From a virus, in the IMG/VR virus record IMGVR_UViG_3300021182_000107, positions 1 through 36,644 of that record: a DNA stretch of 36,644 bases; one strand, written 5' to 3'. Both the position numbers and the translations under genes were made by a program. This document shows positions 8,959 to 20,026 of this stretch, in pieces (position 1 is the first letter of the stretch; each line of letters begins with the position of its first letter). Below the pieces are notes generated by a model. That model had not been told where the DNA came from. It saw only the letters and a list, made by a program, of their open reading frames with translations, and did no database searches.

Positions 8959-9535
8959 GCAAAAAAACGAAAAAGGCGTCCGCCTGCACGCCGCAGAGCT
9001 GGGAAGACGCCAATCAGCTGATGGCCGAATACGGCGCGCTGTCGAGCAAGGCCGTCAAAATTCAAGCCGGGTGCGAGGACGCCGTCGCCAAAGTGAAAGC
9101 GACGTTCCAAATCCAGCTCGCGCCCGTCCAGGTGCGCCTCGACGAAATCTTCGAGGCAATCGAATGCTACGCCGCCGCCAACCGCAAGCGGCTCACTGAT
9201 GACGGCAAGACCAAGACGGTGACGATGACGGCCGGTTCGTTCGGCTGGCGGCTATGCCCGCCGTCTGTGGCGTTCGCTAAGGGTCTGAAGGTTGCGGACA
9301 TCGTGAAGAACGTTCTCAAGCTGATCGCGAAGCTGGGCAACATAAAAAAATGGACGAGCTGGAGCGGTATAAAATCACTGCAAACAGATTTATCCGCATC
9401 AAGTACGAGCCCAACAAGGAGGCGATGCTGGAAGCGCCTGATATCGCCGTGATGGTCGAGGGTGTCAGCATCGCGACGAACAGGGAGGAGTTCTTCCTCG
9501 ATCCGTCGATCGCCGAATTGCCGGAGCCGAAGTAA
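8955..9535 (+). CDS. gam: Gam-like host-nuclease inhibitor, split by a -1 frame break
   Basis: TTG at 8955 is set by GGAGGAT (8943-8949). The zero frame gives the N-terminal and middle parts of a Mu Gam protein, which binds double-stranded DNA ends and shields them from host exonuclease, and is related to Ku: a helical region around IEAIECYAAANRKRLT, then TAGSFGWRLCPPSV. At the A7 run 9344-9350 the frame runs on into 34 unrelated residues ending at 9452. The conserved Gam C-terminus, RFIRIKYEPNKEAMLEAP followed by REEFFLDP, lies in the -1 frame ending at 9535. A shift at A_AAA_AAA rejoins both parts into about 194 residues. Programmed slippage, transcriptional slippage, or a lost A (A8 to A7) are all possible; reinitiation at the ATG 9350 is another option but has no ribosome-binding site. 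Confidence 0.75.
9344..9350 (+). other. Possible -1 slippery site A_AAA_AAA in gam
   Basis: Zero-frame codons are ATA AAA AAA TGG, giving A_AAA_AAA in perfect X_XXY_YYZ phase. After a -1 slip the next codon is ATG at 9350, opening the frame with the Gam C-terminus. Other A7 runs in coding genes (for example in gam at 8961 and in B near 4807) are out of slippery phase and do not break the frame. Confidence 0.45.
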
Positions 9536-9900: not shown

Positions 9901-10079
9901 TGCTCAAGATATCCGGCAAGACGACGCACGGCCTCTTTATCGTCAGCACCGAAGGCGGCATCACCTGGCGCACGCGCGAATGGCTGGAGGAACAGCGCAA
10001 GGTGATGACGGAAAAGCTCGGCGAGATCGGCGCCGACATTCTCGAAATCGACACGGCTCTTGAGGAGCCCACAGCATGA
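9900..10079 (+). CDS. Very small unknown protein (59 aa)
   Basis: ATG at 9900 shares one base with the preceding stop and the gene ends in an ATGA overlap with gemA. The sequence starts with a short strand segment (GLFIVSTEGGITW) and continues as one long charged helix (EWLEEQRKVMTEKLGEIG). It is short enough to be missed by gene callers, but both overlaps and codon use support it. No function is assigned. Confidence 0.65.
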   Translation: MLKISGKTTHGLFIVSTEGGITWRTREWLEEQRKVMTEKLGEIGADILEIDTALEEPTA

Positions 10080-10717
10080 TCAACCGCAAAGACATGTTGG
10101 GTCTGATACACCAAGCCGCCGCGCGCGCCGGGCTAGACGACGAGACCTATCGCGACCGCTTGGAGCGGCTCACCGGCAAGCGTTCGGCGCGCGATTGCAC
10201 CGACTCCGAATTGAGTCTGGTTCTTAACAATTTTCACGTGAAACAGCGCGTGCAACATCCCCATCACGCCAAAATCAAGGCGTTGTTCATCGCCGCTTAC
10301 AATCTCGGCTGCCTCGACAACGGCACCGACGCGGCGCTCGACACGTTCGTGAAACGGCAGACCGGCAAAGAGCATCTCGGCTTCGTCGGGCCGGAGGAAG
10401 CCTTCGCCGTCATCGAGGCGCTGAAGGCAATCGTCGGCCGCGAAGGCATGGTGGCGGGCGATTTGGGTACTGACGGCATCCTACCGCGTTGCAGCCTGCT
10501 CACCGCTCAATGGGCCAAACTCTATCGACTGAAAGCCGTCGAGACGGACTATCCGACCGCGCTGTTGCATTACGTTGAGCGCATCGCGGGTATCCGCAAT
10601 GCTCACATTTGCCTCTACAGCGCCCGCGACCTCGACGCCTGCGCCCGCCACCTCGGTTCCTGGATCAGGAAGGTACAAAACGACGCCGCCAGCCGCGCAC
10701 AGAGCAACGTCGCATGA
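10076..10717 (+). CDS. gemA: GemA / Mu gp16-family protein
   Basis: This 213-residue protein fits the GemA (DUF1018, Mu gp16) family: YRDRLERLTGKRSARDCTDSE at the N-terminus (SELSLVLNNF following), the central KIKALFIAAYNLGCLDN, then FVKRQTG and EAFAVIEALKAI. In Mu, GemA alters host gene expression and DNA supercoiling-linked functions; the mechanism is poorly understood. Position directly before the Mor activator is the same as in Mu. It overlaps both neighbours by ATGA. The C-terminal 70 residues are specific to this phage group as far as I can see. Confidence 0.88.
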   Translation: MINRKDMLGLIHQAAARAGLDDETYRDRLERLTGKRSARDCTDSELSLVLNNFHVKQRVQHPHHAKIKALFIAAYNLGCLDNGTDAALDTFVKRQTGKEHLGFVGPEEAFAVIEALKAIVGREGMVAGDLGTDGILPRCSLLTAQWAKLYRLKAVETDYPTALLHYVERIAGIRNAHICLYSARDLDACARHLGSWIRKVQNDAASRAQSNVA

Positions 10718-11157
10718 GCACAGCCGCCGTCATCGCCCGCAACGTCCTGCCGCCGGTACTGCGCGTCGCGTTCAAGGCGGGCGGCTGGGAGGCTGTTAAG
10801 GGACTTGTGAAGGCGTTGGGCGGTAAGCGTATCCGCATTCCGAAGTCGGCCGGCGATGCCCATCCGCTGGTCGTAGCGTGCGGCCGGCAGGCGGCGGACG
10901 CGATCATGTATCGCTGGGGCGGCAATCAGAGTTTCGAAATCCCCCGCGGCGGCCACTCACTGAAACTGATGCTGGTGGCCGATCCCGAAGCCGGCAGCAC
11001 GAACGAGCTGGTCGAAAAACTCGGCTGCACCAATCGCCACGTCCGCTTTTTGCGTAAAGAGGCGCGATTGGGTAAGAAGAAGCCTGCGCGCGCGCCGAAG
11101 CCGCAAGACCGGCGCCAGCTCGACCTTATTCAAGACACCGATTTAGGCCGGGGATAA
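10714..11157 (+). CDS. mor: Mor/C-family transcription activator
   Basis: This 147-residue protein has the Mor layout. An N-terminal dimerisation part is followed by KRIRIPKS, a helical stretch, and the FEIPRGG strand (about residues 74-80) that in Mor contacts the DNA minor groove; then comes a C-terminal HTH (GSTNELVEKLGCTNRHVRFL). Mor-type dimers bind dyads just upstream of -35 and recruit RNA polymerase to weak promoters. A perfect dyad overlaps the end of this very gene, and a second copy lies before the protease gene. No separate C protein is present, so this one probably drives late genes directly. The last 30 residues are a basic tail. Confidence 0.88.
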   Translation: MSTAAVIARNVLPPVLRVAFKAGGWEAVKGLVKALGGKRIRIPKSAGDAHPLVVACGRQAADAIMYRWGGNQSFEIPRGGHSLKLMLVADPEAGSTNELVEKLGCTNRHVRFLRKEARLGKKKPARAPKPQDRRQLDLIQDTDLGRG

Positions 11158-11205
11158 TTCTCCCCGGCCCTGACGCGGACGCGGCAGCGCAAAGTGCGCG
11201 CCATG
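11146..11205 (+). promoter_or_regulatory. Late promoter candidate: dyad 45.5 bp before the endolysin ATG
   Basis: GGCCGGGGA (11146-11154) and TCCCCGGCC (11161-11169) form a perfect 9-bp inverted repeat around TAATTC; the mor stop codon lies in the spacer. The dyad centre is 45.5 bp from the A of ATG 11203. The block just before the ATG, GTGCGCGCC, resembles GTCCGGGCC at the second copy (18875-18883). No Shine-Dalgarno precedes the ATG. Best read as an activator site with transcription starting at or very near the start codon. The dyad could alternatively be a terminator stem for the middle transcript, but no T-tract follows. Confidence 0.65.
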
Positions 11206-11682
11206 ATCGCATATGCCGACAAACCCATCGCGGCGCAGGGCGAGGACGTGGTCCTCGCCCGGACCATTTTTGCCGAAGCGCGCGGCGAGCCCGTCGATGG
11301 CCAGATCGCGGTTGGCTACACCATTAAGCACCGGGCCGAGATCGCGGCGGCCTATGTCAAGAAGCATGACGAGCCGCATCCGCTCTACGGCGACGGCACC
11401 ATTGCCGGGGCCTGTCTCTCCAGTTTCCGCGGCGTGCACCAGTACTCGTGTTGGAACGAGACCGACCGGTCGCGGCTGAAGGCCTTGCAGGCCGATCACA
11501 ACAACCCGGCATTCTGCCGCGCGATGGATGTGGCGCGTCAGGTCATCGCCGGAACGGCACACGATTTTCTGCCGGGATCGACCCACTACTACGCCCCCGA
11601 CGTGGTTCCGATGCCGAAGTGGGCCGTAGGCCTTCCGTTCCATTCCGTCGGCCACCATCGTTTTTTCAGGGACGTGCCATGA
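11203..11682 (+). CDS. Endolysin, SleB-type cell wall hydrolase
   Basis: The product (about 159 residues) matches the hydrolase_2/SleB family of peptidoglycan-cutting enzymes: VLARTIFAEARGEP with the catalytic Glu of the AEARGE motif, GYTIKHRAEI, then HQYSCWNETDRSR, and a C-terminal THYY ... PKWAVG ... GHHRFF. It would degrade the cell wall at lysis. It heads the lysis cassette, as lys does in Mu, although Mu uses a different lysozyme fold. ATG 11203 is preferred to GTG 11194 because of the matching promoter spacing; neither has a Shine-Dalgarno. There is no signal peptide, so export depends on the holin downstream. Confidence 0.92.
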   Translation: MIAYADKPIAAQGEDVVLARTIFAEARGEPVDGQIAVGYTIKHRAEIAAAYVKKHDEPHPLYGDGTIAGACLSSFRGVHQYSCWNETDRSRLKALQADHNNPAFCRAMDVARQVIAGTAHDFLPGSTHYYAPDVVPMPKWAVGLPFHSVGHHRFFRDVP

Positions 11683-11924
11683 GACGCTCGCTGATCATGA
11701 CCCTCGTCACAGAGGACGACAACGATCAGGTCTGGTGCCCGGTGCGCATCGCCTTTTGGATTGCGTTCGCGCTGTTCATCGCCCTGTGCATCAACTCTTA
11801 CGTCTGCAAAGGCCAGCCGTTCGATCCTATCGCATTTGGCGGCGGCGTCGCGGCGCTGATCACCGGCGTCGGCGCGGGCATCTTTTTCAACGGGCGCTCC
11901 GAAGCGCCAAAGGAGAAGCCGTGA
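11679..11924 (+). CDS. Probable holin (two membrane segments)
   Basis: The 81-residue product has two hydrophobic spans, IAFWIAFALFIALCINSY (about 24-41) and AFGGGVAALITGVGAGIFF (about 51-69), separated by a short loop with PFDP, and a charged C-terminal tail. Two-span small proteins right after the endolysin are typically class II holins. The first ~20 residues are acidic (VTEDDNDQ). ATG 11679 overlaps the endolysin stop. An antiholin or plain membrane protein cannot be excluded. Confidence 0.75.
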   Translation: MRRSLIMTLVTEDDNDQVWCPVRIAFWIAFALFIALCINSYVCKGQPFDPIAFGGGVAALITGVGAGIFFNGRSEAPKEKP

Positions 11925-12136
11925 AACGCAAACATCCAGCCCAACCAGTCGACAGGGCCGTCTATTCGGAAGCCTTCACCGGTAGCGACGGACTGATGAC
12001 TGCAATCCTTAATGCAAGGGCCAAGCTCTATCGCGAGGGGGTTAATATCGAAAGCGTCGGCATCTCCGGTGTCTTAGCTCTGAAGTACGATGAAAATGTC
12101 GGAACCTACACCATGACACTTACGACGAGGCGCTGA
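11921..12136 (+). CDS. Small unknown protein in the lysis cassette (71 aa)
   Basis: GTG at 11921 has a good AAAGGAG (11908-11914). The product is soluble, with EAFTGSDGLMTAILNARAKL as a helical core followed by GISGVLALKYDENVG and YTMTLTTRR strands. No membrane segment or known motif is present. The gene is joined to both neighbours by overlaps. Its presence inside the lysis cassette does not by itself make it a lysis protein. Confidence 0.65.
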   Translation: MKRKHPAQPVDRAVYSEAFTGSDGLMTAILNARAKLYREGVNIESVGISGVLALKYDENVGTYTMTLTTRR

Positions 12137-12981
12137 TGCCCATCCCCTATCTGACCCTCGCAAAATGGATCGGCGCCGGGCTGCTGGCGCTCTTCGTGAT
12201 CGGTGCCATCGCCCGCGTGATCACTGTCGTCAACGGCTGGCACCAGGACAGTCAGGCGCTGCCGCAAGTGACCGCCGCGCGCGATAAGGCGCTAGTAGAC
12301 CGTGACTCCGCGCTCCAGGCCAAGGCGAAGCAGGAAACCAAGTTCGCCGGCACGTTGGATACGATCACCGCCGCTATCACCAACCTGCAGGCCAAGTTCG
12401 ACGCGTTGGCCATGACCCAGTCCGCCGCCGCCGCCCGCGTCGATCGCGCCCTCGACCACTTCAAGGAGATGACCGCCAATGTTGCATCGAATGCTCCCTT
12501 GGGCAGTCCTGACGATCTGCTTGTTCGCCGCGAGTTGTTCAACCTCCTCGCAAACCCCGATACCGGACAACTCGGCCGCGGTGGAACTGGCGACAGCCAA
12601 GGCCAACCACGCGCTGGCGTGCCCGGAGCCGCCGTCCAGCCTGACAATGTGCCCGGACGGAGTGGCGCCGCTTCAGACCAAAGCGGGGCCGTGGTGCCCA
12701 CCGCCGGCAAAAGTGGTCGCAGCCATCTCAAACGCACCGCTCAAGGACGCCGCCGCCGAGGTAATAGGCTGGGCACAGCTGGAGCAACACGACAGGTTCC
12801 GGCTGAACGATTGGGACAAGCCGTGCCGGGCTTCTGGGGGATCGCTGTCGACGACGACTTTGCCATCGCCTCCCGCCGCATCCCGCGACGCGGCGGCGGT
12901 CACGCCTACGAAACCGTAGTGCGCTACGGCCAATATGCCGGCGAACAGGTAGTGCGCCATTGCGGAGCCGCGCGTGGATGA
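12136..12981 (+). CDS. Rz: Rz-like inner-membrane spanin
   Basis: The N-terminus has one membrane anchor, AKWIGAGLLALFVIGAIARV (about residues 9-28), followed by a long coiled coil to about residue 120 (KALVDRDSALQAKAKQET and beyond), as expected of an i-spanin that spans the periplasm and helps fuse the outer membrane at lysis. The frame stays open to 12981, giving 281 residues, much longer than usual. Beyond about residue 140 the composition is Gly/Arg/Ala-rich and the codon pattern belongs to the overlapping Rz1 frame, so the tail may be only a by-product of the overlap. The lipoprotein partner is nested inside it. Confidence 0.78.
   Translation: MPIPYLTLAKWIGAGLLALFVIGAIARVITVVNGWHQDSQALPQVTAARDKALVDRDSALQAKAKQETKFAGTLDTITAAITNLQAKFDALAMTQSAAAARVDRALDHFKEMTANVASNAPLGSPDDLLVRRELFNLLANPDTGQLGRGGTGDSQGQPRAGVPGAAVQPDNVPGRSGAASDQSGAVVPTAGKSGRSHLKRTAQGRRRRGNRLGTAGATRQVPAERLGQAVPGFWGIAVDDDFAIASRRIPRRGGGHAYETVVRYGQYAGEQVVRHCGAARG
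12479..12919 (+). CDS. Rz1: Rz1-like outer-membrane spanin lipoprotein, nested in Rz
   Basis: This frame begins with a lipoprotein signal, LPWAVLTICLFAASC, with the lipidated Cys at residue 20 (lipobox AASC), then Ser/Thr/Pro-rich sequence and PCPP-like proline clusters (CPEPPSS, WCPPPAK), typical of Rz1 o-spanins. It lies completely inside the Rz frame but in another register, as in lambda Rz/Rz1. ATG 12479 is used; ATG 12491 is an alternative. At 146 residues it is longer than lambda Rz1, with an extra C-terminal domain containing EVIGWAQLEQHDRFRLNDWD. Mature Rz1 contacts Rz through its C-terminus. Confidence 0.85.
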   Translation: MLHRMLPWAVLTICLFAASCSTSSQTPIPDNSAAVELATAKANHALACPEPPSSLTMCPDGVAPLQTKAGPWCPPPAKVVAAISNAPLKDAAAEVIGWAQLEQHDRFRLNDWDKPCRASGGSLSTTTLPSPPAASRDAAAVTPTKP

Positions 12982-13207
12982 CGCCGACAACGCCCAGACG
13001 CGCGAACAGGAACAACGGGACCGGGGCATCAACGCGGTGCGGTTTCAAGCGGCACTGGCCCGCTGGACACAAGGCGTTGGCGAAAAGGACTGCGTCGACT
13101 GTGACGATGAAATCCCAGAAGAACGCCGCCGCGCGGTGCCCGGCGCCAACCGTTGCACGCGCTGTCAGGAAATCTACGAACGCACAATGAGAATGCGGGG
13201 GAAATAG
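12974..13207 (+). CDS. TraR/DksA-type zinc-finger protein
   Basis: This 77-residue protein has the C4 zinc finger CVDCDDEIPEERRRAVPGAN then RCTRCQ (C-x2-C-x17-C-x2-C), as in TraR and phage DksA homologues. TraR binds in the RNA polymerase secondary channel and mimics DksA plus ppGpp; this phage copy may similarly tilt host transcription. The basic N-terminal helix is short. GTG at 12974 has GGAG at 12964-12967. It shares a base with the next start. Mu-like phages often carry such a gene between lysis and packaging genes. Confidence 0.9.
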   Translation: MDDADNAQTREQEQRDRGINAVRFQAALARWTQGVGEKDCVDCDDEIPEERRRAVPGANRCTRCQEIYERTMRMRGK

Positions 13208-13590
13208 TGTCAACGGACAACATAGTGCAACTGATCATCGGCGCTCCAGGCATCATAGCGATGCTGTGGCTGGTGGTGTCTTTCGTCATGCAAAAGGTCT
13301 CCGGGGATGAGGCCAACGTCGCCGTCGACAAACTCGAAAGCGAAACCATCGCGCCGATGAATAAGTCGGTCATTGACCACGACCGGCGGATTATTCGCCT
13401 CGAAGAAAAGATCAGTGCGATCCCCACCCAGCGCGATTTTCAGACGCTGGAGAATACGGTCTCCGAGTTGGGCGGCGACATCAAGGAACTGACGGCCGAA
13501 AACCGCGCTCTGCACGGTCTGGTCGAGCGCATCGAGCGGTCGGTCAACGTGATGAACGAAGCCCTATTGACGAGAAGCAATGCCACATGA
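13207..13590 (+). CDS. Mu gp25-like membrane-anchored coiled-coil protein (DUF2730 type)
   Basis: GTG at 13207 overlaps the previous TAG and follows GGGGGA. One membrane span near the N-terminus (APGIIAMLWLVVSFVMQKV) is followed by a long coiled coil (HDRRIIRLEEKISAIPTQRD onward) ending near residue 120. This fits the DUF2730 proteins found at the gp25 position in Mu-like phages, right before gp26, gp27 and terminase. The role is unknown; perhaps a membrane-linked assembly factor. In-frame sequence upstream of 13207 lies inside the zinc-finger gene and is excluded. Confidence 0.75.
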   Translation: MSTDNIVQLIIGAPGIIAMLWLVVSFVMQKVSGDEANVAVDKLESETIAPMNKSVIDHDRRIIRLEEKISAIPTQRDFQTLENTVSELGGDIKELTAENRALHGLVERIERSVNVMNEALLTRSNAT

Positions 13591-13892
13591 CCCCTTATGA
13601 AAAGACCCTGGCCGAACATCGCCGAATTACCATCTTGCGGCTGATGGCGGATGGCGGCGGTTCTTCAAACGAGAGCGTTCTGACGGACGCCCTCGAAGGG
13701 ATTGGTCTGGAAGCGGGTTTGACGCGCGAGGCCGTGCGCGTCGATCTGAAGTTTTTAGAAGACTGCGGCGCGATCCGTCAGGAATGGTTCGGCGACAAGA
13801 TGGTGGTCGCCCATATTACCGTTCGCGGCGTCGATATCGCCAAGGGCCGCATCTTTGTTGATGGCATCAAGCGCCCTTCGATTGGGGTGTGA
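13587..13892 (+). CDS. Mu gp26-like winged-helix protein
   Basis: The 101-residue product has an ArsR/MarR-like winged-helix pattern: HRRITILRLMADGGGSSNES (helix and turn), GLTREAVRVDLKFLEDCG (recognition helix region), then the wing VVAHITVRGVDIAKG. Mu gp26 homologues at this position show the same pattern and are of unknown function, perhaps assisting packaging. It overlaps the gp25-like gene by ATGA and is two bases from the small terminase. Confidence 0.82.
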   Translation: MTPYEKTLAEHRRITILRLMADGGGSSNESVLTDALEGIGLEAGLTREAVRVDLKFLEDCGAIRQEWFGDKMVVAHITVRGVDIAKGRIFVDGIKRPSIGV

Positions 13893-13893
13893 C

Positions 13894-14454
13894 ATGTCCC
13901 AGCGCTCAACCATCGAACAGTTGCCGCCCGAGCAAAGAGCGCGCGTCGATGCCTTATGTGTGGACAAGTCCCTGACGCTGACCGAGTTGCGGGAACGGCT
14001 CACTGAAGAAATAGGAGACGCCGCACCGTCCCGCTCTGCGCTCGGCCGTCATCGGCTCAAGGTCGAAGAGGTCGCGCAAGCGATGCGCGAAAGCCGCGAG
14101 GCGGCGAAGGTGCTGCGCGCCGAGATGGGCGACCTCACGGACGATGTGCAGTCGCGGCTCAATTATGAGATGCTCCAAGGCCAGCTCTTCAAGGCGCAGA
14201 TGGCGATCATGTCGGGCGACTTTGCACCCGAAAACATGATCAAGGAATTCCGCGGTATGGCCGACGCGCTCTACCGCCTATCCGCATCGCGCAAGATCGA
14301 CGCCGACCGCATCGTGCGGATCAAGCAGGAAGCTGCGAAGGAAACGGCACAGAAAGCGGTAACAGAAATCGACGCAGTTGCCGCCAAGACGCCGGGCCTT
14401 TCGAAAGACACCGTTGACGACATCAAGCGCCGCATCCTGGGGATCGCCACATGA
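13894..14454 (+). CDS. Small terminase subunit, Mu gp27 type (DUF3486)
   Basis: The product (186 residues) fits the DUF3486 family: IEQLPPEQRARVDALCVDKS at the start, LRERLTEEIG and the PSRSALGRHR segment typical of the family HTH, then a long helical region (LNYEMLQGQLFKAQMAIMSG). The small terminase recognises the phage end and recruits the motor. It directly precedes terL and overlaps it by ATGA. ATG 13894 is two bases after the previous stop; upstream codons are shadow. Confidence 0.88.
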   Translation: MSQRSTIEQLPPEQRARVDALCVDKSLTLTELRERLTEEIGDAAPSRSALGRHRLKVEEVAQAMRESREAAKVLRAEMGDLTDDVQSRLNYEMLQGQLFKAQMAIMSGDFAPENMIKEFRGMADALYRLSASRKIDADRIVRIKQEAAKETAQKAVTEIDAVAAKTPGLSKDTVDDIKRRILGIAT

Positions 14455-16127
14455 GCGGTGAGCCGATCGGCGCGCTTCCCGGTGTGCCGCTCTCCGAAGA
14501 GGATTGGAAACGCCACCGAATGGAAGCGGTGGCGTCGCTGCCTGAGTGCCTCAAGGGCAAGTCTCTGCCCGACATCTTCATGCCGTTCCAGAAAGCGCTG
14601 CTGCAATCGACCAAGGATTGGCAGCTCACGGTGGCCGAGAAGAGCCGCCGCACCGGCGCGACCTGGGGCGTTGGCGCCGACGCTGTTCTGACTTCGGCCG
14701 CTGCCCGCGATGCGGGCGGCATGGACACGCTCTATCTCGGTTACAACCTCGATATGGCGCGCGAGTTTATCGACACCTGCGCCATGTGGGCCAAGGCATT
14801 TTCCTCGGCCGCCAGCGCGGTCGAAGAGTTCATGTTTCCGAACGGCCAAGAGAAGGGCGAAGACAAGTTCATCCAGGCGTTCCGCATCCGCTTCGCCTCC
14901 GGCTTCGAAATCGTCGCCCTGACATCCCGCCCGCGCTCGCTACGTGGTCGCCAAGGCTTTGTGATCCTCGACGAGTTTGCGTTCCACGACGATGCCGAAG
15001 AGTTGCTTAAGGCGGCTTTCGCGCTGCTGATCTGGGGCGGCAAGTTGCTCGTCATCTCGACCCACAACGGCGCCGAGAACCCGTTCAACAAGCTGATCGA
15101 GGAAATCCGCTCCGGCAAGAAGATCGGCAATGTGGTGCGTTGCACGTTCGACGAAGCGGTCGAGCAAGGGCTTTACCAGCGCATCTGCCTGGTCACCGGC
15201 AAAGTGTGGTCGCCGGAGGCCGAAGCGGCATGGCGCACCAAGATCAGAAAAAACTACGGTGCCCATGCCGACGAGGAACTCGACTGCGTGCCGAGCCTGG
15301 GCAGCGGCGTCTATATCCCGCGCGTCGTGATCGAGGCGTGCGCGATGAAGGACCTGCCGGTTCTGCGTCTGCAATGCCCCGACACTTTCACGACAAAGCC
15401 GCAGCCCTATCGCGAGAAGTTCGTCGAGGACTGGCTACATGAGGCGGTTGATCCGGTTTTGGCGACGCTTGATAAGTCGGAGCGCCATGCCTACGGCCTC
15501 GACTTCGCCCGTAGCGGGGACCTATCGGTGTTTGCGCCGATAGCTACCAAGCGCAATCTGACGCGCCGCGTGCCGTTTGTCATCGAAATGAAAAATGTGC
15601 CGTTCGAACAACAGCGCCAGGTCGTGTTCTACGTCACCGAACGGTTGCCGCGGCGCGGCGCCGGAAAGTTCGACGCCACCGGCAACGGCTCCTATCTCGC
15701 CGAGGTCACCATGCAGAAGTATGGCGAGACCGAAGTCGAGTGCGTCAAGATCAGCCAAAAATGGTATCTGGAAAATGCCCCCAAGCTGAAAGCGGCAATC
15801 GAAGATCGCGCCTTCGAATTCCCGGCCGACGACTATCTCACGTCCGATCTGGCAATGATCAAGCTGATGGCGGGCGTGCCGATGGTGCCCGACAGCGCCC
15901 ACAACGACGACCGCGACGGCGGCGAACGCCACGGCGACTTTGCCCCGGCCGCGATGCTGGCCTACGCGGCGAGCGTGGCCGACGCCAATTCGGCGACCTG
16001 TAGCGGCTTCATTGCCGTGCCGAAGTCGGCGGGCAAGTTCGACACGGGTGGTGGGGATGGCCAAAACGGAACCTTCCGCATGCGGGCGGACGAACAACCT
16101 AGCGGCTCCGGCCGCGGTAGCTGGTAG
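14451..16127 (+). CDS. Large terminase subunit (Mu gp28 type)
   Basis: This 558-residue DNA-packaging motor and nuclease has the ATPase motifs: a deviant Walker A KSRRTGAT (64-71), Walker B VILDEF (Asp174-Glu175), and motif III VISTHNGAEN (201-210). The RNase H-like nuclease domain follows, with acidic residues Asp351 (YGLDFARSGD), Asp408 (KFDATGNG) and Asp496 (RHGDFAPA). In Mu-like phages it packages a headful including host DNA. The C-terminal 30 residues are Gly/Ser-rich and flexible. Its stop codon lies at the AGGAG site of the portal gene, so translation is probably coupled. Confidence 0.95.
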   Translation: MSGEPIGALPGVPLSEEDWKRHRMEAVASLPECLKGKSLPDIFMPFQKALLQSTKDWQLTVAEKSRRTGATWGVGADAVLTSAAARDAGGMDTLYLGYNLDMAREFIDTCAMWAKAFSSAASAVEEFMFPNGQEKGEDKFIQAFRIRFASGFEIVALTSRPRSLRGRQGFVILDEFAFHDDAEELLKAAFALLIWGGKLLVISTHNGAENPFNKLIEEIRSGKKIGNVVRCTFDEAVEQGLYQRICLVTGKVWSPEAEAAWRTKIRKNYGAHADEELDCVPSLGSGVYIPRVVIEACAMKDLPVLRLQCPDTFTTKPQPYREKFVEDWLHEAVDPVLATLDKSERHAYGLDFARSGDLSVFAPIATKRNLTRRVPFVIEMKNVPFEQQRQVVFYVTERLPRRGAGKFDATGNGSYLAEVTMQKYGETEVECVKISQKWYLENAPKLKAAIEDRAFEFPADDYLTSDLAMIKLMAGVPMVPDSAHNDDRDGGERHGDFAPAAMLAYAASVADANSATCSGFIAVPKSAGKFDTGGGDGQNGTFRMRADEQPSGSGRGSW

Positions 16128-16136
16128 GAGCTGACG

Positions 16137-17705
16137 ATGCTTCCGAGATTTGTCACCGCCGCGTTGGCCTACTTTAAAGGCGATAGCGGCAAGCAGGTGC
16201 TGGAGGACCATCACTCCGGCGCAACGCTGACCGGCGTACGCCAGGTGTTTCATTCCGGCGTCAGCCGCAATCTCGACCCGCGGCGCATCGCGGCGATCTT
16301 GCGTGAGGCCGACGAAGGCATTCCGCAGCGCCTTATGGAGCTGGCCGAGGAGATCGAAGAAAAGTTCCCCCAGTACATCTCGGTTCTCGGAACCCGCAAG
16401 CGCCAGGTTGCACAGCTGCCGATGACGGTGGTCGCCGCGAAGAACGGCAGCGAGATCGACAAGCAGATTGCCGAAGCGGTGCAAGAGGACTTGGTCGACA
16501 GCGGTGTGATCGATCGCGCGTTGTTCGATATGCTCGATGCTGTCGGCAAAGGATACTCGCTCAGCGAAATCATCTGGGATACCAGCGGACCGCACTTCAA
16601 GCCGGCCAAGATCGAACACGTCGATCCGCGCTTTGTCCGTTTCGACCGTGCCACGATGCGCATTCCGATGTTGCTCGGCGACAGTGGCCAAGACGAGGTG
16701 CTCACGCCGTTCAAATATGTCTGGCTGGAACTGAAGGCGAAGTCCGGCATCCCGGTGCGCGGCGGTATCGTGCGGGCCGCGGTGTGGTGCTGGCTGTTCC
16801 AGAATTTCTCGCTTAAGGACTGGGTTCAGTTCGTCGAGATCTACGGTCTGCCGCTGCGCATCGGCAAATATCCGATCGGGGCGAGCGAAAACGATAAGAA
16901 AGAACTGCTTCTGGCCGTGGCGCATCTGGCCTCAGACGCCGCCGGCATCATTCCGCAAAATATGCTGATCGAGTTTAAGGAGACCGCGAATAAGGGCTCC
17001 TCGGCCGATCTATACGAGCGTCTGTGTAAGTACATGGACGAGGCCGTGTCGAAAATGGTGTTGGGGCAAACCGGCACTACGGACGCCACCGGCGCGTCCG
17101 GGCTGGGCAGCGGTACCGAACATACGCAAGTGCGCGAGGACATTGAACGAGCCGACGCAAACGCCTTGTCGGCCGCGCTCAACGAATGTCTCGTCAAGTC
17201 CTATGTGATGTTCAATTTTGGTGAGCAGCCGCGCTATCCGTGGCTGCGCATCGGCCGGGATGACGAAGCCGATGCCCAGCTGATGATCACGGCGGCGGAA
17301 AAGCTCGTGCCGTTAGGCTTCAAGATCGTGCAATCAGACATCCGCCAGGCCGTGGGTTTCACCGAACCAAAAGACGGCGACGAGTTGTTCACGCCGCCCG
17401 CGGCGCCTGCACCCACCACACCGGTCACATCGGACATCGGTCCGGCCGTTGCGCGCGCGTTGGCGGCATCCGTTAAAGGCGACGCCATCGATCCCGTCGT
17501 TGCTGCGATCCTATCCGATTGGCAGCCGATGATGGAGCCGGTCATGGGGCAGATCGAAACAGCAATCGCATCGGCCAAGACCTTCGAAGAGGCCCGCGCC
17601 AATCTCGCCAAGATCGATCCCAACATGGCCAAGTTCGCCGAGCTGATGTTTTCGGCGAAGTTTCAGGCGGTAGGCGGCGGAGCACTCGGCGCGACTGTGA
17701 AGTGA
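16137..17705 (+). CDS. Portal protein (Mu gp29, DUF935)
   Basis: The 522-residue protein matches the DUF935 portal family in length and motif order: LDPRRIAAILREADEGIPQR at the start, DGKGYSLSEIIWD-like sequence (residues about 136-148), the WVQFVEIYGLPLRIGKYP segment, then GTEHTQVREDIERADANALS. It forms the dodecameric ring at the packaging vertex. AGGAG at 16126-16130 positions ATG 16137. The C-terminal region after about residue 420 is Pro/Thr/Ala-rich, then helical, as usual in this family. It sits between terminase and MuF as in Mu. Confidence 0.93.
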   Translation: MLPRFVTAALAYFKGDSGKQVLEDHHSGATLTGVRQVFHSGVSRNLDPRRIAAILREADEGIPQRLMELAEEIEEKFPQYISVLGTRKRQVAQLPMTVVAAKNGSEIDKQIAEAVQEDLVDSGVIDRALFDMLDAVGKGYSLSEIIWDTSGPHFKPAKIEHVDPRFVRFDRATMRIPMLLGDSGQDEVLTPFKYVWLELKAKSGIPVRGGIVRAAVWCWLFQNFSLKDWVQFVEIYGLPLRIGKYPIGASENDKKELLLAVAHLASDAAGIIPQNMLIEFKETANKGSSADLYERLCKYMDEAVSKMVLGQTGTTDATGASGLGSGTEHTQVREDIERADANALSAALNECLVKSYVMFNFGEQPRYPWLRIGRDDEADAQLMITAAEKLVPLGFKIVQSDIRQAVGFTEPKDGDELFTPPAAPAPTTPVTSDIGPAVARALAASVKGDAIDPVVAAILSDWQPMMEPVMGQIETAIASAKTFEEARANLAKIDPNMAKFAELMFSAKFQAVGGGALGATVK

Positions 17706-17712
17706 CGGCGCG

Positions 17713-18462
17713 ATGCCCCTCCTCAGCGTCCGCGATATTACCCCTCAAAACGCCTTAAAGGCGTTTCGAACGCGCCTGGCACAACCGACGCCGGAATATT
17801 CGTGGCTCGATCTGTGGCAGCACGAACATGCCAATGCCTTCACGGTGGCAAAGACGGCAGGCCACGACGTGCTGGGCGATATCGGCAAATCGCTCGACGA
17901 TGCCATCGCTAAGGGCGAGACGTTCGAAACCTGGTCGCGCAAGCTGATCCCGACGCTGCAGGATAAGGGCTGGTGGGGAACTGGCCCGGCTCTCGATCCT
18001 GAAACCGGCGCGATGGTGGAAAGCCGTCTCGGATCGTTGCGCCGGCTAGATGTCATCTACGACACCAACCTGCGCCAATCCTACGCGGCGGGACGCTGGC
18101 TGGAGATCGAGCGCAACAAGACCGACGTGCCGTACCTGATGTACAAACACAACTTCAGTCTTCATCCACGTGCCGAGCACGAAGCATGGGACGGCATTTG
18201 TTTGCCGGTCGATGATCCGTGGTGGCTAACGCATTATCCGCCCAACGCTTGGAAGTGTCATTGCAGCGTGATCCCGGTGACGCGCACGCAATTTGACCGG
18301 CTGGATAAGTCTGGCCGCATCACAACGGAGGCGCCGAAGATCGTCACGCGGGACTTTCGCAATAAGCGCACCGGTGAGGTCACAGCGATACCCGAAGGCA
18401 TCGATCCGGGCTTTGGCTACAACGCGGGCGTGGCCCTGCTGGAGGCACTGGCCGGTGGTTAA
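17713..18462 (+). CDS. MuF-family head morphogenesis protein (Mu gp30)
   Basis: This is a 249-residue MuF/SPP1 gp7-family minor head protein. The family signature is seen at residues 151-186: HPRAEHEAWDG, then THYPPNAWKCHC with the conserved Cys182 and Cys184. Such proteins enter the prohead with the portal and may be ejected with DNA. No toxin domain is fused. The start ATG 17713 has no strong ribosome-binding site (GAAGTGA upstream). It ends the operon segment; a 420-base gap follows. Confidence 0.92.
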   Translation: MPLLSVRDITPQNALKAFRTRLAQPTPEYSWLDLWQHEHANAFTVAKTAGHDVLGDIGKSLDDAIAKGETFETWSRKLIPTLQDKGWWGTGPALDPETGAMVESRLGSLRRLDVIYDTNLRQSYAAGRWLEIERNKTDVPYLMYKHNFSLHPRAEHEAWDGICLPVDDPWWLTHYPPNAWKCHCSVIPVTRTQFDRLDKSGRITTEAPKIVTRDFRNKRTGEVTAIPEGIDPGFGYNAGVALLEALAGG

Positions 18463-18826
18463 AACGGGCACCGCCAGAGCGGCATTTAAGGTCCGCCAAC
18501 CGTTAACCGTCCAGTCCAGGGCTTGTGGCCGCCCCTGGGGCTGGTAGTGGCCGGGAGGGGTGAGGCCACAGAATGCGTCAGGAAGCCCGACGACCCTCCT
18601 CCAGGCCCTCCCGGAGCCTGAAACAGTCCGACCGGCCTGCCAGCCTTTTAAGAGGGGCTTAAAAACGATCCTAATACCGGCCCGACCTGCCATTTTGCCC
18701 CGGACGGCCATCCCCCCCTCCAAATCCGGCCCGAACGGGGGTATGAAGGCGTCCGCGCGCCCGCTTCGAGGCGCCCAGGCAGTGCCCCGCCAGGGCCTCG
18801 CCAACCCGCTTTAGACCAGACCGGTG
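18463..18826 (+). other. Gene-poor gap with hairpins upstream of the protease promoter
   Basis: No frame here has convincing coding character; an 84-codon frame at 18560-18814 is Pro/Arg-rich and has no ribosome-binding site. The stretch is unusually rich in C and G runs. Visible structure includes GTGGCC (18547-18552) pairing with GGCCAC (18564-18569), with another GTGGCC at 18525-18530 able to compete for the same partner, and TTTTAAG (18646-18652) pairing with CTTAAAA (18658-18664) around AGGGG. In Mu the corresponding place holds gene G, which here lies further downstream, so the gap may be a gene relic, a long untranslated region or an RNA gene. Confidence 0.5.
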
Positions 18827-18886
18827 CGCCGGGGATATTTCTCCCCGGCCACGGCATGCGCGGGCCGGATCATTGTCCGGGCCATG
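18827..18886 (+). promoter_or_regulatory. Late promoter candidate: dyad 45.5 bp before the protease ATG
   Basis: GCCGGGGA (18828-18835) and TCCCCGGC (18842-18849) form a perfect 8-bp dyad with spacer TATTTC, differing from the copy at 11146 only in one spacer base within the core. The dyad centre is 45.5 bp before ATG 18884, the same distance as at the endolysin. The bases before the ATG (GTCCGGGCC) resemble those there, and no Shine-Dalgarno is present. In Mu the promoter PI lies before gene I, the same location. Confidence 0.65.
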
Positions 18887-20026
18887 ACGACGCTTGTTCT
18901 TATCGACCGACCCGATGTTGCGGTCGCGCTCTGCGCGGCCGTCGATCTTTACGACACTGCCAACTGCTCGGTCACCGAGCTGGTGATCGCGGACGGCGGC
19001 CAGGCGCCCGAATGGGTGCAGCTGCTTCCCGCCGGTGATGTGAAGCCGGTGGACGGACGCGATCCGTGGACCAACCGCGATCCCGAACAAGTCATCGCCG
19101 CGTCGGCCACCGCGCTGGCGCGCATGTCGATCGATTACGACCACGGAACCGACAATGGCGGTTCGTCGCGCGCTGCCGGCTGGATCAAAGAGCTGAAGGC
19201 CAAGGGTCCGAAAGGTGAGCCCGGTATCTGGGCGCGCGTCGAATGGAACGAGGACGGCGCCAAGGCGGTTGCCGCCAAGGAATATCGCTTCCTCTCGCCC
19301 GTATTCAACTTCGTGAAGTCGACGCGCCAGGTCACAGACGTGGTGCGCGCGGCTCTCACCAATAACCCCGCGCTGGTTTTGAAGGCGCTGGCCTCGGCAC
19401 AGCCGAACAACAACCCCAACAAGGAGACGACGTTGGACCTTAAAGCACTCGCGAAGCTGCTCGGCTTGCCCGAGACGGCGACGCAGGCGGACATTGAAGC
19501 CGCCATTAAGGGGCTCTGTGACGGCCAGGCCGCCATGGCTGCCAAGAAGAAGGGCGTCTGCTCAGTCATGAGCGCCGCCGGCCTTGCCGAGGATTTCGAC
19601 AAGTTCGACGACGCCGCAGCGACCGCGATCTGCACCAAGATTAAGACGGTGCCGGCGGACGTGACCGAACTTGCCACGCTGCGCGCCGAACACTCGACGG
19701 CGTTGGCGCGTATCCTCGAACTCGAAGGCAAGGCGGAAACCCAGACCGCCGAGCAGATGGTCGACGCCGCTATTGCCGCAGTCAAGCTCACACCCGGCCA
19801 GCGAGTAAGTGCACTCGCGCTGTGCCGGCATGATCCCGCCGCGTTCAAGGCCCTGATCGAAAAGGCTGTGCCGGTCGTCGTGCCGGGCAAGAAGGACGCG
19901 CCCAATGGTGGCGGCGCGCAGTCCGGTAAACTGGACGAAGGCCAGACCGCCATCTGCCGGATGACCGGCGTCAATCCCGAAGATTTCGTCAAGAACCTTC
20001 CGGCCAAATACGAGGAGACCGTTTGA
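18884..20026 (+). CDS. I: Capsid protease with C-terminal scaffold (Mu gpI)
   Basis: This 380-residue protein matches Mu gp32 (I), the head maturation protease. The N-terminal protease part (about 1-170) includes MSIDYDHGTDNGGSSRAAGW, where the His of the D-x-D-H segment is a family hallmark, and YRFLSPVFNF. The C-terminal part (about 184-380) is a helical scaffold region that is also made alone from an internal start. The protease removes the scaffold after shell assembly. ATG 18884 is chosen because the longer frame from 18824 runs through the promoter dyad. No Shine-Dalgarno is visible, which fits a leaderless transcript. Confidence 0.9.
   Translation: MTTLVLIDRPDVAVALCAAVDLYDTANCSVTELVIADGGQAPEWVQLLPAGDVKPVDGRDPWTNRDPEQVIAASATALARMSIDYDHGTDNGGSSRAAGWIKELKAKGPKGEPGIWARVEWNEDGAKAVAAKEYRFLSPVFNFVKSTRQVTDVVRAALTNNPALVLKALASAQPNNNPNKETTLDLKALAKLLGLPETATQADIEAAIKGLCDGQAAMAAKKKGVCSVMSAAGLAEDFDKFDDAAATAICTKIKTVPADVTELATLRAEHSTALARILELEGKAETQTAEQMVDAAIAAVKLTPGQRVSALALCRHDPAAFKALIEKAVPVVVPGKKDAPNGGGAQSGKLDEGQTAICRMTGVNPEDFVKNLPAKYEETV
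19433..20026 (+). CDS. Z: Scaffold protein from an internal in-frame start (Mu gpZ)
   Basis: Inside the protease gene, a perfect AAGGAG (19421-19426) stands six bases before an in-frame TTG at 19433, opening LDLKALAKLLGLPETATQAD. The result is a 197-residue helical scaffold sharing the C-terminus of the protease. Mu makes scaffold Z in just this way, from the same frame within I. The helix-rich centre (ELATLRAEHSTALARILELE) suits a coiled-coil core of the prohead. TTG is a weak start, but the ribosome-binding site is among the best in the window. Confidence 0.75.
   Translation: MDLKALAKLLGLPETATQADIEAAIKGLCDGQAAMAAKKKGVCSVMSAAGLAEDFDKFDDAAATAICTKIKTVPADVTELATLRAEHSTALARILELEGKAETQTAEQMVDAAIAAVKLTPGQRVSALALCRHDPAAFKALIEKAVPVVVPGKKDAPNGGGAQSGKLDEGQTAICRMTGVNPEDFVKNLPAKYEETV

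Follow-up and report, generated by a model that had tools for sequence, protein, structure and literature searches.

Paired dyads before the endolysin and head protease genes of a Mu-like virus as predicted activator sites of leaderless late promoters

The virus record IMGVR_UViG_3300021182_000107 of IMG/VR (positions 1 to 36,644; the window, below, means this whole stretch of 36,644 nucleotides) carries the same inverted repeat, or dyad, before its endolysin gene (lys) and before its head maturation protease gene (gene I). We consider it probable that each dyad is the activator site of a late promoter, and that the two promoters correspond to Plys and PI of phage Mu, are served by one activator of the Mor/C class and give rise to leaderless lys and gene I mRNAs. 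In this mechanism, a dimer of the protein encoded by the last early gene (10714-11157) would bind each dyad, centred some 45 bp before the transcription start, where it would replace a -35 element and recruit the host RNA polymerase to the weak -10 hexamers CAAAGT and CATTGT. Transcription would begin at the A of the ATG, leaving both mRNAs without a leader, and a single activator would serve both units, whose late timing is predicted. An earlier note made from the letters of the window had described the dyads and read them as a Mor-driven late regulon; the observation is confirmed, and its interpretation is supported by the sequence comparisons reported here.

The two dyads and their genes in the window

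The dyad at lys, GCCGGGGATAATTCTCCCCGGC, occupies positions 11147-11168, and one more G-C pair extends it to 11146-11169. The dyad at gene I, GCCGGGGATATTTCTCCCCGGC, occupies positions 18828-18849; neither is assigned a strand. The arms are identical (8/8), and the differences between the two sites are confined to the six central bases. Symmetry extends through the centre, with 11/12 pairs matching at lys and 9/11 at gene I. According to a mismatch scan of the whole record, the 22-bp dyad occurs exactly twice and no other site has two or fewer mismatches, which bears out the statement of the earlier note that it occurs at two places and nowhere else. With up to three mismatches allowed, two extra sites with three were added to the two dyads with none (23290 and 30589), and shuffled sequences held 0.57 such sites on average. 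The dyad centres, 11157.5 and 18838.5, were correctly placed 45.5 bp upstream of the ATG codons at 11203 and 18884, and the reported likeness of the nine bases preceding them amounts to 7/9 identical positions. A further feature, absent from that note, is a -10-like hexamer exactly 7 nt before each ATG. The proposed hexamer at lys, CAAAGT (11190-11195, plus strand), is based on the sequence and on alignment with 22 other starts; the one at gene I, CATTGT (18871-18876, plus strand), recurs in the same register at both gene I and lys of the nearest relative, locus L003, in which both dyads are found as well. The window has the arrangement of a Mu-type late promoter, namely a dyad upstream of lys and I together with a -10-like element. 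No Shine-Dalgarno (SD)-like word was seen upstream of either ATG, as had been noted. This absence says little by itself, because 10 of the 24 listed gene starts in the window, lys and gene I included, have no such word. Rfam gave no matches across 10900-19300. The exact pattern GCCGGGGAW5CTCCCCGGC was also looked for in viral contigs and had seven loci, which were rejected; in flanks of 30 bp before and 58 bp after, none looks like the lys/gene I setting.

The genes beside the dyads, all on the plus strand, have the endolysin and capsid protease identities that had been assigned to them. lys (11203-11682, 159 amino acids, proposed leaderless start A11203) matched Pfam Hydrolase_2 with 34.1 bits (cut-off, 27), and gene I (18884-20026, 380 amino acids, proposed leaderless start A18884) matched Mu-like_Pro with 211.6 bits. 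The candidate activator gene (10714-11157, 147 amino acids) directly follows gemA (10076-10717; Pfam GemA, 96.3 bits), and its stop codon TAA (11155-11157) does fall within the first dyad. By sequence, its product is a clear member of phrog_836, late transcriptional activator (E value, 6.1e-14; 9.8e-16 in the search of the record), and profile A4 matched Mu Mor (1rr7; E value, 0.0028). Its position, its homology and the covariation described below point to this protein as the activator of both promoters. A search of the record, which may be incomplete, revealed one gene of the Mor/C type, in line with the claim that a separate C gene is lacking. The suggestion that the activator also serves middle functions found no support, and no third dyad was found in the window. 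The window Mor gave no tblastn matches in phage records, and a Mor single-sequence search of viral contigs gave none; a further Mor search and a portal search returned only L003.

Recurrence, start sites and recognition helices

L003 is closely related to the window phage (72% identity in gpI, the gene I protein, aligned from residue 1; 84% in Mor; 84% in the portal protein). Its dyads lie at 1524-1545 (lys) and 9498-9519 (gene I), each 45.5 bp before the ATG, and are fuller palindromes, GCCGGGGATAATTATCCCCGGC and GCCGGGGATATTTATCCCCGGC, with symmetry at 11/11 pairs at lys and 10/11 at gene I. At dyad position 14, the window has C and L003 has A, in each case at lys as well as at gene I, whereas the base at position 11, which discriminates the lys from the gene I site, is kept in both phages. 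Such a pattern would be expected of two sites read by a single trans-acting protein. Of the L003 endolysin only a 34-codon remnant (1580-1681) is left; the next gene (1681-2241) encodes a different lysin, whose lysozyme domain is of the Pesticin type. The endolysin was thus swapped behind an intact dyad, and the predicted promoter stayed while the gene downstream was replaced; the exchange of the lysin module lies immediately downstream of it.

Recurrence of the paired element was examined in loci obtained from Mor matches (alignment A1; phrog_836) in Alphaproteobacteria and Pseudomonadota genomes and in phage and viral records. The 83 loci with a Mor/C-type gene comprised 34 of the 42 places of one phrog_836 search (L008 included), 40 of the 142 of another and nine others; places in the phrog_836 searches were chosen for long contigs. 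Fifty of the 83, some of them short pieces, were without gpI and were dropped before the test, and 33 have gpI 3-14 kb downstream, with weak gpI matches in L041, L052, L065 and L075. L056 (1.2 kb) and L076 (the same place as L047) were left out, and one genome carries both L057 and L058 as copies. For each locus, the stretch following mor was matched against the stretch preceding gpI; random pairs from within the locus served as the null and regions shifted by 1-3 kb as controls. A shared element was detected at p 0.05 in 17/33 loci versus 4/195 controls (Fisher P 2.8e-13) and at 0.01 in 12/33 versus 1/195. Without the window, L003, L058 and the four loci with weak gpI, the counts were 12/26 versus 4/195 (P 6.5e-10). 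In a second, smaller set of 13 loci, six of which have mor, 4/6 were positive versus 0/32 controls; only L124 was new among these four positives, which is 1/3 among the new loci. Each phage or close pair has an element of its own, mostly palindromic, as in CCATGGTGACAGGTGTCACCATG (L057), CCCCTGAACTTGTTCAGGGG (L041) and CTGAACCGCTTCAG (L099). In L046, L048 and DMS3, the element is repeated but has a low palindrome score.

The lysis/gene I pairing was also visible in whole-record scans of ten phage records, in which the query was the 200 bp before the phage's own gene I. The best other match was the lysis-side site in six of them: the window, RcapMu, D3112, DMS3 (31 of 36 kb covered), the Rhodovulum phage vB_RhkS_P1 and the Pelagibaca phage vB_PeaS-P1. 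In RC1, the lysis-side site tied with others for best, and in B3 the top two matches precede the tape measure gene and the lysis genes. For nine distant loci with a lysis-side start in the expected place, the first gene was compared with Pfam; in eight it encodes a peptidoglycan enzyme, from five families: Amidase_2 (two), Phage_lysozyme, lytic transglycosylase DPBB_1, Glyco_hydro_19 and Glyco_hydro_108 (three). The ninth is a 115-codon gene of DMS3 with no Pfam match. At RcapMu (L128, 13946-13996 and from 22367) and at the L041 sites, the repeats resemble terminator hairpins with T-runs, and a dual role with termination is possible for these elements. An activator gene of phrog_836 (E value, 1e-19) is present in vB_PeaS-P1 (L021:11543-11986), despite the statement that the two phages described in the corresponding paper lack a Mor activator (PMC5488378).

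The Pseudomonas phages DMS3, D3112 and B3 share the repetition of an element at the lysis side and gene I, with element sequences other than those of the window. B3 differs further in having a leadered lysis side and a third dyad before the tape measure gene; its mor gene is on the opposite strand at the left end, 11 kb away from the lysis genes. As dyads nevertheless stand at lysis, gene I and tape measure, the site goes with the late unit and not with mor. Strand-specific RNA sequencing of the B3-like phage Fc02 gave three forward-strand late clusters, of which the first starts with holin-endolysin and the second consists mainly of virion structural genes (PMC9936078). The three late units are here compared across phages, the dyads being read in B3 and the RNA clusters reported for Fc02.

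The distance from dyad to start codon clusters as well. In the multi-phage table, distances are counted such that the 45.5 bp of the window reads 45.0. Among 32 sites from 16 phages with a palindromic element, 17 have, 42.5-46.5 bp beyond the centre, an ATG followed by an open frame of at least 100 codons, compared with 2.1% of random positions, the interval having been fixed after the first distance table was inspected; without the window, the count was 15/30 (P 2e-15 at the highest background). The distances are 43 and 44 in DMS3, 43 at gene I of B3 (43.5 in the units of the earlier note) and 43-44 on both sides of D3112, where the gene I frame is broken. The lysis start of L003, at 45, opens only 34 codons. 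Twenty-three starts from 13 phages, hand-picked from the distance table, were aligned. They have a -10-like hexamer 6-7 nt before the ATG, mostly with A at -11/-12 and T at -7/-8. Base -1 is C in 22/23 of them and base -3 is G in 19/23, versus 75/162 and 58/162, respectively, of a background of long forward open reading frames (ORFs), real or not. An SD-like word was found in 0/26 listed starts. A transcription start on the ATG would be expected to look like this, with a -10 at such a spacing, C at -1 and A at +1. From this spacing and the C-1/A+1 step, a leaderless 5' end at the start codon is predicted.

The predicted starts bear on existing annotations. For gene I of DMS3, the start predicted here is at 19037 and the annotated one further downstream, at 19163; similarity to the window protein already begins at 19067, before the annotated start. 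In B3, the annotated start (19857) would sit inside the promoter, and the predicted one (19887) is the start annotated in Ps60. The annotated gene I starts are probably wrong, too far downstream in DMS3 and too far upstream in B3. The lysis-side start predicted in DMS3 opens the 115-codon gene mentioned above, an unannotated ORF (L022 6195-6542; NC_008717 10261-10608) that matches phrog_3648, of unknown function, over its full length from residue 1. The gene I start predicted in D3112 (L131, 19793) opens only 57 codons, because the frame is broken or the sequence contains an error. In DMS3, the proposed head promoter is immediately preceded by the anti-CRISPR gene and an adjoining winged helix-turn-helix gene (L022 14335-14752).

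The dyad sequence varies among phages together with the recognition helix of Mor. The comparison used 18 of 24 listed phages, omitting one of each close pair (L003, L021 and JBD67) and those with non-palindromic elements (L046, L048 and L008). The borders of several dyad strings were set by eye. Dyad and helix similarity were correlated with a Mantel r of 0.49 (p 0.0002), and the partial r given the N-terminal part of Mor was 0.44 (p 0.0002), common descent being only partly controlled in these tests. Inspection by eye suggested two helix rules. Where the helix has ER or DR and then I/V and W/Y (L041, L083, L099, L111 and DMS3), the dyad is of the TGAA..TTCA type, the DMS3 arm being shortened, and RT[VI]xR helices (L045, L057, L052 and L007) pair with GACA..TGTC dyads. 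L008 is an exception, with an RTVER helix and no GACA..TGTC dyad. At close range, B3 and JBD67 are 97% identical in gpI, 99.5% in GemA, 85% in Mor and 64% in the transposases. Seven of the 18 differences in Mor fall in residues 86-101 (hypergeometric P 0.003), an interval chosen after the differences were seen, and the JBD67 sequence differs from B3 at all three B3 sites. This pair may be a case of helix and site changing together, yet it also counts on the other side, as no repeated dyad was found in JBD67.

Alternative explanations and known systems

Several observations weigh against activator sites at leaderless late promoters. The shared element was not detected in 16/33 loci, and the whole-record scans found no match at the lysis start of KS10 or Mu. 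In KS10, gene I directly follows mor, and the lysis genes are on the opposite strand. Mu was negative in the shared-element test too, which says little, because Mu is a known positive whose Plys and PI carry C-binding dyads; the test is insensitive. The earlier note had expected the dyad to persist at a fixed distance in relatives. This part largely stood, as L003 keeps the dyads at 45.5 bp and the lysis/gene I pairing recurs elsewhere. The expectation that the dyad is not lost where the gene is conserved failed in part, in another group, with Ps60 and JBD67, which keep the gene I start without the B3 dyad and have no second copy of the 120 bp before gene I at a score of at least 12; the recognition helix of JBD67 Mor is changed. 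No long-ORF start lies within the distance interval on either side in L045, L112, L007, L052 and RcapMu. The start is further off, or none is in the interval, on the lysis side of L008, L020, L021, L057, L080, RC1 and B3 and at gene I of L041. L045, L007, L106 and L112 entered the distance test as palindromes despite failing the shared-element test. The late choice of the distance interval and the partial control of descent belong to the same side. With regard to the activator, its product scored 16.8 and 10.4 bits against Pfam Mor, and because the cut-off of 24.9 is not reached, Pfam Mor alone would not file it. The model of the product (mean predicted local distance difference test score 72.7; helices at 96-103 and 107-119) retrieved Mu C (9l0x) at rank 2 (E value, 0.70) and Mor (1rr7) at rank 6 (E value, 0.74) in Foldseek, and this fold match is not significant.

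Some of these points would suit late-promoter activator sites whose transcripts start some bases away from the ATG, with short leaders lacking an SD sequence. The many window starts without an SD-like word favour this variant, as do L045, L112 and RcapMu, which carry the element with starts further away. It is nevertheless unlikely, since the distance from dyad to ATG clusters at 43-46 in distant phages, several of them on both sides, and the hexamer 6-7 nt before the ATG together with the nearly invariant C at -1 is placed as a transcription start at that A would predict. The dyads could instead be intrinsic terminators or RNA hairpins, one closing the early unit behind mor and the other closing the first late unit ahead of gene I. 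The GC-rich stems where units end, the T-runs after the elements of L041 and RcapMu, and the statement that the second late cluster of Fc02 is limited by a terminator (PMC9936078) agree with this idea. However, no T-run follows the window dyads, and neither is among the nine terminator-like sites listed. Symmetry continues through the centre in the window and L003, which an RNA loop does not need, and the elements of L046, L048 and DMS3 are repeated yet poor palindromes. The fixed distance to the ATG, the lysis site of B3 far from mor and the covariation with the helix would be left unexplained, and termination is a very improbable account of the dyads. Equally remote is their use by a host regulator or another phage protein that represses late genes in the prophage, such as the S24-type repressor encoded in the record (692-1411). 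Near-perfect dyads would suit a repressor as well, but the site varies among phages together with the Mor recognition helix, and the early control region of the window has no dyad.

The proposed mechanism can be set beside what is known of Mu. There, the Mor dimer recognises a 16-bp element that is made up of two 5-bp inverted repeats, has its centre at -43.5 and takes the place of the -35 element (PMC4390567, PMC4287176), and Mu C binds related dyads at Plys, PI, PP and Pmom (PMC4287176, PMC4461284); the Mu facts on which the earlier note relied, a Mor dyad near -43 and the promoters Plys and PI, agree with these papers. If +1 is the ATG, the window centres lie at about -45, close to the position of Mu Mor, and the best reading is therefore a Mor/C-type activator at late promoters. 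As proposed, the window system would share with Mu the positive control of lys and I by the Mor/C family through a dyad-symmetric element, in the same gene order. In Mu, C is a gene of its own and four promoters depend on it; the window has one activator gene and two sites, and an ATG sits where +1 should be. With one Mor/C-type gene found in a record that may be incomplete, its predicted late promoters would not depend on a separate middle gene C, and the system is a variant rather than the Mu C system itself. The middle promoter Pm likewise has an inverted-repeat element in place of -35, a recognisable -10 and an activator that is an early gene product, whereas the window sites stand at late genes and have 8-bp arms and an AT-rich spacer (G/C-rich in Pm). 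The cI and cro mRNAs of PY54 are leaderless, and lambda cI is cited likewise (PMC4488713). The window mRNAs are predicted from sequence to begin at AUG in the same way, but those known cases are immunity repressor genes, unlike the activator-dependent late lysis and head genes here. Putative promoters of D3112-type phages have been proposed by prediction programs, and such sites are not among them in the parts of that paper covered (PMC4378225). Activator-driven Plys and PI are already known in Mu; new with respect to Mu are the proposed single activator, the predicted leaderless starts and the helix-dyad covariation. In the part of one open library that was covered, neither leaderless late genes in Mu-like phages nor a helix-dyad relation was found described.

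One interval of the window also invites comparison with Mu. About 365 bp between F and I near the record centre (18463-18827) have no gene assigned, although short ORFs are present. The annotated gyrase cut site of Mu (17879) lies in the same interval before gene I, and the L003 interval is partly alike. The stretch is possibly the equivalent of the Mu gyrase-site interval.

Implications for Mu-like phages

Taken more broadly, leaderless, Mor/C-activated initiation of lysis and head genes is likely to be an old and widespread design of Mu-like phages, in which the promoter outlives lysin swaps and each phage keeps a private regulon through a readable helix-dyad code. The same joint claim includes the two helix rules given above as that code, and a dyad that sets the start of transcription and of translation at one base. 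If this is true, the late units of many Mu-like phages would be findable from sequence alone, and late gene starts such as those of DMS3 and B3 could be corrected. A regulator-operator code would become readable in a family known mainly from Mu. The position of the DMS3 anti-CRISPR gene beside the proposed head promoter would bear on how this gene escapes or exploits late transcription. The leaderless phage messages, of which the cases cited here are repressor genes, would also be joined by lysis and head genes that depend on an activator, and this would raise the question of why Mu-like phages dispense with leaders late in infection.

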